The notes under the pieces are model-generated. The model did not search any database, was not told the DNA's origin, and saw nothing but the letters and a program-made list of their open reading frames with translations. A program made the position numbers and the translations under genes. Below, piece by piece: positions 34,342-34,711 of a stretch of DNA of 40,406 bases (position 1 is the first letter of the stretch; every line of letters begins with the position of its first letter). This stretch comes from a virus, in the IMG/VR virus record IMGVR_UViG_3300030419_000962, positions 1 to 40,406 of that record; one strand, 5' to 3'.

Positions 34342-34369
34342 ATTATAAGCGAAAAAAAGAAGGGGTCAA
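34342..34369 (-). promoter_or_regulatory. Sigma70-type promoter overlapping a terminator
   Basis: Minus strand: -35 TTGACC (34364-34369), 16-base spacer, -10 TATAAT (34342-34347). The -35 is in the loop and right arm of the terminator hairpin, and the terminator's T-run is the spacer. It would drive the 56-aa gene and thyX. Confidence 0.6.
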
Positions 34370-34376
34370 GCCCCTC
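34352..34376 (-). terminator. Intrinsic terminator after the 42-aa DUF4278-like gene
   Basis: Minus strand: stem AGGGG / CCCCT (GC-rich, short loop of CTTGA), then TCTTTTTTT. It ends the transcript carrying the riboswitch-like leader and 42-aa ORF. Confidence 0.8.
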
Positions 34377-34401
34377 CTTTATGTCTTAGTCCAAGTAAGT
34401 T

Positions 34402-34530
34402 TCACCTTGCACACACAACTTTTGATTCTGTGTGCTTGATGCCTCTGTAAACGAGTTCAGAGACTTGCTTCTGACAAGATTTCTTGTCATCGGTGTTATA
34501 TGTAACACCACGATAAGTGACTTGTGCCAT
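34402..34530 (-). CDS. DUF4278-like small protein under nitrogen-type control, 42 aa
   Basis: ATG at 34530 gives MAQVTYRGVTYNTDDKKSCQ, then KQVSELVYRGIKHTESKVVC and AR. Two YRG units (TYRGVTY and VYRGIKH) are the hallmark of DUF4278, a small cyanobacterial family. As I recall, the PII-interacting regulator PirA of Synechocystis belongs to it. A good ribosome-binding site, CAGGAG (34541-34546), lies ten bases upstream. The leader holds two elements resembling the glutamine riboswitch, whose Downstream-peptide class precedes short ORFs in cyanobacteria. An NtcA-type promoter lies beyond. A role in modulating host nitrogen or arginine metabolism is an inference. Confidence 0.75.
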   Translation of the reverse strand: MAQVTYRGVTYNTDDKKSCQKQVSELVYRGIKHTESKVVCAR

Positions 34531-34566
34531 GGTTTTTACTCCTGAAGTAGTTGGATTTTTAGGCCC

Positions 34567-34604
34567 CGTTCCTTCAGTCGTTTGCGTCCCCGAAGGGATG
34601 AACG
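34567..34604 (-). ncRNA. Glutamine-riboswitch-like aptamer (Downstream-peptide / glnA class), second copy
   Basis: Minus-strand RNA: P1 arms CGTTC and GAACG enclose a TCCC-TTCG-GGGA hairpin, then the conserved-type CGCAAAC and CTGAAGGAACG. This order (P1, CCC/GGG stem, ACGxAA, CUGAAGGAACG) matches my recollection of the glnA and Downstream-peptide RNAs. It is 36 bases from the 42-aa ORF start. CTGAAG (34572-34577) can pair perfectly with CTTCAG (34542-34547), which overlaps the ribosome-binding site, suggesting a switch helix. Confidence 0.7.
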
Positions 34605-34607
34605 ATC

Positions 34608-34649
34608 CGTTCCGCGACTTACTTGCGTCCTCCTAATAGAGAATGAACG
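34608..34649 (-). ncRNA. Glutamine-riboswitch-like aptamer, first copy
   Basis: Minus-strand RNA: CGTTCA, a TTCTC-TATTAG-GAGGA hairpin, then CGCAAGTAAG and a closing GGAACG. It has the same layout as the element at 34567-34604, separated from it by three bases, so the two could act as a tandem sensor. Confidence 0.65.
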
Positions 34650-34672
34650 TATGGATATGCTAACATATCTAT

Positions 34673-34711
34673 ATTATATATGCAAGCAGAACTGTAACAC
34701 TTGATACAGTT
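34673..34711 (-). promoter_or_regulatory. NtcA-type promoter: GTA-N8-TAC box plus TATAAT
   Basis: Minus strand AACTGTA-N8-TACAGTT (34690-34711), a perfect 7-bp inverted repeat containing the NtcA consensus GTA-N8-TAC (34694-34707). A TATAAT (34673-34678) lies 15 bases after TAC, shorter than the usual ~22, so the exact -10 is uncertain. The leader begins just before the riboswitch-like elements. Confidence 0.65.

Follow-up and report, generated by a model that had tools for sequence, protein, structure and literature searches.

In a 40,406-nucleotide stretch of viral DNA (IMG/VR record IMGVR_UViG_3300030419_000962, positions 1 to 40,406; here called the window), the minus strand carries at 34649-34567 two CGTTCA...GGAACG copies with a gap of three bases (GAT), and comparative sequence analysis makes it probable that these copies form one composite, fully nested riboswitch of the glutamine-I type, made of two interleaved half-aptamers and working as a translational ON switch. 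The distal copy reads CGTTCA-[TTCTC..GAGGA]-CGCAA...GGAACG and the proximal copy CGTTCA-[TCCC TTCG GGGA]-CGCAA...CTGAAGGAACG. An original prediction, which gave no strand, had described them as two separate glutamine-riboswitch-like aptamers in tandem. The shared words, the stems, the gap and the glutamine-riboswitch family all hold, but the copies are not separate aptamers: P1, a long-range pair and P3 all pair between them. At the level of covariation, we regard this nested topology as established for the class of elements, and as very likely for the window copy itself.

In the proposed architecture, the outer aptamer would consist of the distal CGUUC, the distal P2, GACGCAAGUA, the shared P3, GAA and the last GAACG. 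Its P3 loop would enclose a permuted inner aptamer, which would be built from a GAACG-loop-CGUUC hairpin, the proximal P2 and GACGCAAA and closed by the other end of the shared P3. In other words, P3 would join two three-way junctions back to back, with the glutamine-contact bases kept in each. We infer two occupied, interdependent glutamine sites, the interdependence being built into the topology because each aptamer is made from the other's strands. The parts of the element would be placed as follows.

34645-34649, minus strand: outer P1 5' strand, the distal CGUUC, with its partner at 34567-34571
34628-34643, minus strand: distal P2 hairpin UUCUC/GAGGA, covarying in relatives
34625-34629, minus strand: distal core GACG-C, in which C34625 and G34566 form the outer long-range pair
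34620-34622, minus strand: loop-E strand GUA of the outer junction, as in the glutamine-I loop E of the literature
34615-34619, minus strand: shared P3 5' strand AGUCG, with its partner at 34576-34580
34600-34612, minus strand: inner P1 hairpin GAACG-GAU-CGUUC; G34607 and C34584 form the inner long-range pair
34587-34598, minus strand: proximal P2 hairpin UCCC-UUCG-GGGA, covarying in relatives
34584-34588, minus strand: proximal core GACG-C, from the Rfam alignment and coordinates
34576-34580, minus strand: shared P3 3' strand CGACU, covarying with 34615-34619
34573-34575, minus strand: loop-E strand GAA of the outer junction, from coordinates
34566-34571, minus strand: outer P1 3' strand GAACG, from P1 covariation, plus G34566 of the outer long-range pair

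Relatives were collected by pattern scans, all of which required exact core words. Scanning IMG/VR for the distal 3' half, the gap and CGTTCA gave at least 120 stretches, a second scan with a GACGG-type pattern gave at least 120, and a search of GTDB, with each species represented by one genome, gave 50 matches in all. Most scans also fixed some P1 letters; a P1-variant scan instead looked for departures from the usual P1 letter (distal 3' halves with a non-G at the second place of GGAACG; at least 120 stretches). The counts of composites, P1 variants and single aptamers given below are samples among the matches listed, not totals. The 278 loci held 256 distal sites, 213 with a proximal copy and 43 without one under the strict pattern, which were left unclassed. 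The two-copy sites split into 31 true tandems, each copy having its own GUA-P3-GAA, and 182 composites, in which the distal copy has GUA without GAA and the proximal copy GAA without GUA. True tandems are found in genome contigs (23, many of them SAR86 or SAR92) and viral contigs (8); the composites comprise 174 in viral contigs, 5 in genome contigs, 2 in phage records and the window. Because the P1 and P2 words are common to both kinds, the true tandems are a usable control. A later pooled set has 275 composites (230 distinct), and the alignment set holds 60 distinct sequences from 67 short composites. The phages P-SSM2, P-RSM1 and ACG-2014f, whose distal P2 begins with an A-U pair, escaped the strict pattern for that reason. 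The true side-by-side tandems of SAR86, SAR92 and other marine bacteria (L228-L264 region; e.g. L256, a SAR86 chromosome) are at odds with PMC6316151, which confines glutamine riboswitches to cyanobacteria.

The P1 variants separate the two possible registers. Among the variant sites, 51/120 were incomplete (7 of these without a proximal CGTT), and in the 69 complete rows the nested register kept 135/138 pairs and the side-by-side register 3/138. A later count required the distal 5' half to pair at the first P2 position, a rule blind to P1, and under this rule the three exceptions disappear: with all composites pooled, nesting keeps 142/142 pairs at 71 loci, compared with 2/142 side by side, and for the 44 distinct sequences the figures are 88/88 and 2/88. 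A clear single case is locus L289, with outer CGUUU/AAACG and inner CAACG/CGUUG. RNAalifold on the aligned composites picks the nested P1s. The long-range pair has its precedent in the glutamine-II structure, where, according to PMC6698751, the base after the core G pairs with the base after P1, glutamine-I having an equivalent. It is formed in 355/364 cases when nested and 160/364 side by side in the 182 composites, in 537/550 and 338/550 in the 275, and in the 60 aligned composites the outer pair is present in 60/60 and the inner in 56/60.

The strands of P3, which follow the distal GUA and precede the proximal GAA, covary as well (AGUCG/CGACU, AGUCA/UGACU, GGACGG/CCGCCC and others). Their duplex energy averages -4.18 kcal/mol over 28 distinct pairs, versus -2.95 +- 0.32 with swapped partners (0/2000), and 5/8 P3 columns changed on both sides among the 60 distinct aligned composites. 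P1, P2 and P3 of the outer aptamer, the helices of the RF01739 three-way junction, all covary. In the window and the 182 composites alike, a single copy contains neither a full P3 nor both strands of loop E, because P1, P3 and the long-range pair are all formed across the two copies. The original prediction had noted that the first copy lacks CTGAAG and that the copies might not be equivalent, and both observations turn out to be correct: the "missing" CTGAAG is the shared P3 3' strand plus a loop-E strand and lies in the proximal copy, and the distal copy holds GUA and one P3 strand, the proximal copy GAA and the other. P2 covariation in relatives likewise bears out its suggestion that compensatory changes keep the P2 hairpins, and in place of one copy varying freely, which it had named as a refutation, both copies are conserved in the 60 aligned composites.

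The same numbers bear on whether the two copies are independent, side-by-side aptamers in series, a pseudo-cooperative tandem of the kind that the published doublet count assumes (157 doublets and 4 triplets of glutamine riboswitches in PMC9481103). Such units exist, as the 31 true tandems with complete copies demonstrate, and Rfam mostly reports single copies. However, each copy of a composite has one loop-E strand and one strand of P3, and side-by-side pairing fails in 140/142 P1-variant pairs and 204/364 long-range pairs, which leaves this explanation with almost no credibility. An RNA that alternates between two functional states, one nested and one side by side, would be compatible with the four P1 strands of the window; yet the P1 variants retain the nested register only and nesting is better by 7 kcal/mol in the window (core energies of -20.5 nested and -13.4 kcal/mol side by side), and we find such switching very unlikely. 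A circularly permuted aptamer at gene junctions, with P2 formed by the bases before the distal GACG and after the proximal CGTTCA, was rejected (3.06 pairs versus 3.09 with swapped partners); its P1 part, a local hairpin, is retained as the inner P1.

Several observations count against the nested composite. The P1 words are identical in most sequences, including the window, and the register of the window copy therefore rests on P3, on energy and on analogy with the variants. Two P3 columns are mostly A-C mismatches (51/60 and 42/48 cells unpaired), the long-range pair is broken in some composites (13/550), and the covariation cells share descent and hence are not independent. The unconstrained minimum fold of the window (-23.5 kcal/mol) keeps the outer P1 and the distal P2 and rearranges the inside. 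The loop-E strands GUA and GAA are present at the outer junction only; the inner junction lacks both, and glutamine binding there may fail. The last point also fits a structural RNA or protein-binding leader that has lost glutamine sensing, as do single copies scoring near or below the Rfam cut-off. However, the glutamine-contact bases of P1 and the core, as known from solved structures, are invariant in the 60 aligned composites, and the link to DUF4278 is one already known for glutamine riboswitches; we consider a loss of sensing unlikely.

With respect to family membership, a permissive search with RF01739 (cut-off 35) gave 34.4 bits (E 2.7e-6) for the proximal copy, just under the cut-off, and 15.5 bits (E 0.47) for the distal copy. 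A whole-window Rfam scan returned no family at the curated cut-off. Even so, these scores and the occurrence of the block joining the copies in many phage records (see below) show that the resemblance exceeds chance. Above the gathering score in the outer register are L150 (47.6 bits), L116 (40.2) and L168 (39.6), in all of which the Rfam glutamine model extends over the two copies (in L116, 43 bases are inserted in the P3 loop); for the other composites scanned, single copies or nothing were reported. The outer aptamer shares with glutamine-I (glnA RNA, RF01739) the P1 CGUUC/GAACG, P2, the GACG core, GUA/GAA, P3, the long-range pair and a downstream DUF4278 gene. It differs in that its P3 loop carries a second, permuted core sharing P3, and in that relatives have genes in place of P2 hairpins. 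The doublet glutamine riboswitches (PMC2864571 and PMC9481103) likewise have the conserved words twice per leader, but there the copies are complete and self-pairing, whereas in the composite every shared helix lies between the copies. Glutamine-II (Downstream-peptide, RF01704) shares the P1/P2 words and has an almost identical ligand site (PMC6698751), but the window element lacks the 3' pseudoknot helix. Filing the window under glutamine-II was rejected, with 27.0 bits for RF01704 versus a cut-off of 33 and gaps at the expected 3' helix; in some relatives, one copy scores near or above 33 (L281, 33.1; L116, 35.7).

Two other kinds of RNA offer partial parallels. The tandem glycine riboswitch has two complete, like aptamers that touch and fold together; co-folding of two like aptamers is common to both systems, but in the composite each aptamer uses strands of both copies. 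Introns and HEARO-type RNAs carry a protein gene in a terminal loop of a conserved fold, mostly for mobility proteins in mobile RNAs, whereas the composite fold is a metabolite aptamer and its embedded proteins are mostly 50-73 amino acids long with two cysteines.

How the composite might control translation is suggested by the sequences that follow it. On the minus strand, the order is a promoter-like site, the double element, a small DUF4278-like gene and a terminator-like hairpin.

34657-34685, minus strand: promoter-like TTGCAT-N17-TAGCAT, ending 7 bases before the first CGTTC
34572-34577, minus strand: CUGAAG, the proposed strand opposing the ribosome-binding site, overlapping P3, loop E and the first G of GGAACG
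34542-34547, minus strand: CUUCAG, the partner of CUGAAG overlapping the ribosome-binding site, from the leader minimum fold and covariation
34539-34543, minus strand: ribosome-binding site AGGAG, assigned by eye
34402-34530, minus strand: 42-amino-acid DUF4278-like frame (PF14105, phrog_5049)
34352-34379, minus strand: terminator-like hairpin with a T run, from the terminator scan and coordinates

In the absence of glutamine, a CUGAAG-CUUCAG pairing would occupy the ribosome-binding site of the DUF4278-like gene. In its presence, the outer aptamer would hold CUGAAGGAACG and the ribosome-binding site would probably be freed; release by glutamine is predicted because activation of DUF4278 genes is reported for glutamine riboswitches of types 1 and 2 (PMC6316151). 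The CUGAAG/CUUCAG pair is found in the minimum fold of the window leader, and covariation of the two words in relatives (22/22 versus 0/23; Fisher p 1.5e-5) supports the predicted pairing. The type with CUCUUUA after the aptamer lacks the CUUCAG platform, which counts against the model, and must rely on a different one. The match of the 42-amino-acid frame to PF14105 is just below the Pfam cut-off (24.4 bits versus 25.3; E 3.9e-5), and that to phrog_5049 has an E of 5e-14. A YRG-bearing DUF4278-type frame lies downstream in 176/190 cases. An action like that of PirA or IF17 is a candidate function for the phage DUF4278-like protein; PMC6316151 assigns DUF4278 to the N-terminal region of IF17, and the word DUF4278 is absent from PMC8092223.

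The element probably sits at the 5' end of its transcript: a TTGNNN-N15-19-TANNNT motif lies at most 22 (mostly 7-10) bases before CGTTCA in 150/180 leaders, compared with 12.1 +- 3.3 in shuffles. In the window, the TTGCAT has only 3/6 consensus bases in the first hexamer, and the site is unlisted in the consensus promoter scan. A by-eye look for an NtcA site upstream of the element gave no convincing match. The -10 region that precedes the distal copy is at many loci contained in a palindrome, e.g. GGTCTATAATAGACC or GGTATGCTAACATACC.

The window copy has short P2 hairpins only and no embedded frame, while 198/275 composites have a longer stretch in place of one or both P2 hairpins. In the first set, these stretches span 185-228 bases in the distal (n=55) and 139-191 bases in the proximal position (n=88), and 55/55 and 87/88, respectively, contain a reading frame. 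The proximal frame continues into the aptamer core in 85/88, typically ending in DAND or DAKAD with the stop in CUGAAGG or CUAAAGG. P2 nevertheless persists across the frames, with 5.41 and 5.91 contiguous pairs versus 4.00 and 4.02 for swapped partners (0/2000 each); the short P2 hairpins have 5.24 and 6.43. The start codon overlaps the P2 helix in 45/60 distal and 96/103 proximal cases, and GGAG is found in the inner P1 loop of 38/95 composites with a proximal frame and 0/95 without. Third codon positions differ most (0.285 and 0.524, compared with 0.187 and 0.359 for first and 0.137 and 0.174 for second positions), which is the pattern expected of coding sequence. A comparison with hhalign relates the distal to the proximal embedded proteins (96.4%, E 1.1e-9); two cysteines are invariant in each group, and most members have 50-73 amino acids. 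They matched no Pfam family and match PHROGs of unknown function; for one distal protein, AlphaFold2 predicts a confident two-helix hairpin (residues ~21-55, mean pLDDT 79.6).

The inner P1 loop can be filled as well. In L443 (plus strand), L461 (minus) and L294 (minus), it holds a frame of 192-196 amino acids, which in L443 matches the homing-endonuclease family phrog_314 (E 9.4e-9) and in L294 reads through the proximal half to a stop in CUGAAGG; its GIY-YIG appearance was judged by eye and not confirmed by Pfam. Frames in any of three loops, a homing-endonuclease-like frame among them, and the relatedness of distal and proximal frames would suit a conserved block that is mainly a DNA feature, namely a recombination or homing site for small gene cassettes, with a subordinate role for the RNA fold. 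The compensatory changes seen in helices P1, P2 and P3 as well as in the long-range pair, together with the promoter position, suggest instead selection on the RNA. We give the DNA explanation a small chance as the principal one, and both can be true together.

In relatives with P2-loop frames, the start codons would come to lie within or beside P2 on folding, and translation through the core would unfold the aptamer; we therefore infer that embedded and downstream genes are used in opposite conditions. A further-reaching proposal, which we put forward tentatively and hold to be somewhat short of an even chance, is a gene-containing class of phage riboswitches with two mutually nested glutamine sites on one P3, in which every terminal loop (the two P2 loops and the inner P1 loop) can carry a frame. 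Such an RNA would act as a toggle: bound glutamine would switch off the embedded small proteins, which are of exported type, and switch on the DUF4278 gene, and translation of the embedded frames would open up the sensor. By contrast, of 115 matches to single aptamers with a separate P3, 109 have a short P2; most of the other six matches look like chance, L331 not. There (~670-1010), a complete short aptamer is followed by a second with its own GUA and GAA, whose P2 seemingly holds a frame. Separately, a proximal P2 hairpin identical or close to TTCGCTATTCGCAAATAGCGAA recurs in otherwise different GACGG-type phages (L018, L037, L084), as if it were a mobile or favoured hairpin.

We found no description of a nested or gene-containing glutamine aptamer in the literature searched, including passages from PMC2864571, PMC9964418, PMC9481103, PMC12510878, PMC6698751, PMC6316151, PMC7760959, PMC8092223, PMC9004378 and PMC9602691, which is not proof of absence. 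Tandem riboswitches are usually taken as separate serial units, and the covariation described here points to another solution; published counts of glutamine doublets may include such composites. The relatives also show that coding sequence can lodge in a metabolite aptamer with the helices kept, embedded start codons lying within or beside P2 and the stop codons of proximal frames in the core. For the question of how the nitrogen state of the host is read by cyanophages, the element is relevant, and since syn9 and other laboratory cyanophages carry it, in syn9 with gp196 and gp197 embedded, the model is directly testable.

The copies are joined by a 35-base block (window 34595-34629) that is present in 435/50,697 phage records, all named cyanophages or marine viruses. 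We compared 14 regions from named phages. In syn9, both P2 loops are filled (gp196, gp197), followed by gp198, which is DUF4278-like (22.9 bits, cut-off 25.3), and talC. The proximal loop is filled in S-P4, S-RSM4, S-SSM4, P-TIM40, P-RSM6, S-SKS1 and DSL-LC02. ACG-2014b has a proximal frame likewise, its proximal core being unmatched by the strict pattern, and sequence reading places P-SSM2 and P-RSM1 in the same group; the frame in the proximal P2 of P-SSM2 (L284, ~1520-1700) is unannotated in the GenBank record. Bellamy, P-TIM68 and ACG-2014f have two short hairpins. The window neighbourhood looks like that of a T4-like cyanophage, judging from psbA, talC, thyX and purN named by eye.

Directly 3' of the proximal aptamer, a conserved AACGGATC-hairpin-AGAAGGTTAA stretch occurs in L285 (just after 1567), L009, L021, L040, L082, L097, L106 and L283; it matched no Rfam family in L283 and L285 up to E 0.5. 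In L281 (1692-1877) and L103 (586-780), the composite is followed after a few hundred bases by a manA RNA (RF01745, 188 bits), and an abiF RNA (RF03085) lies beside a run of tRNA genes in the viral contig L130 (4668-4704).
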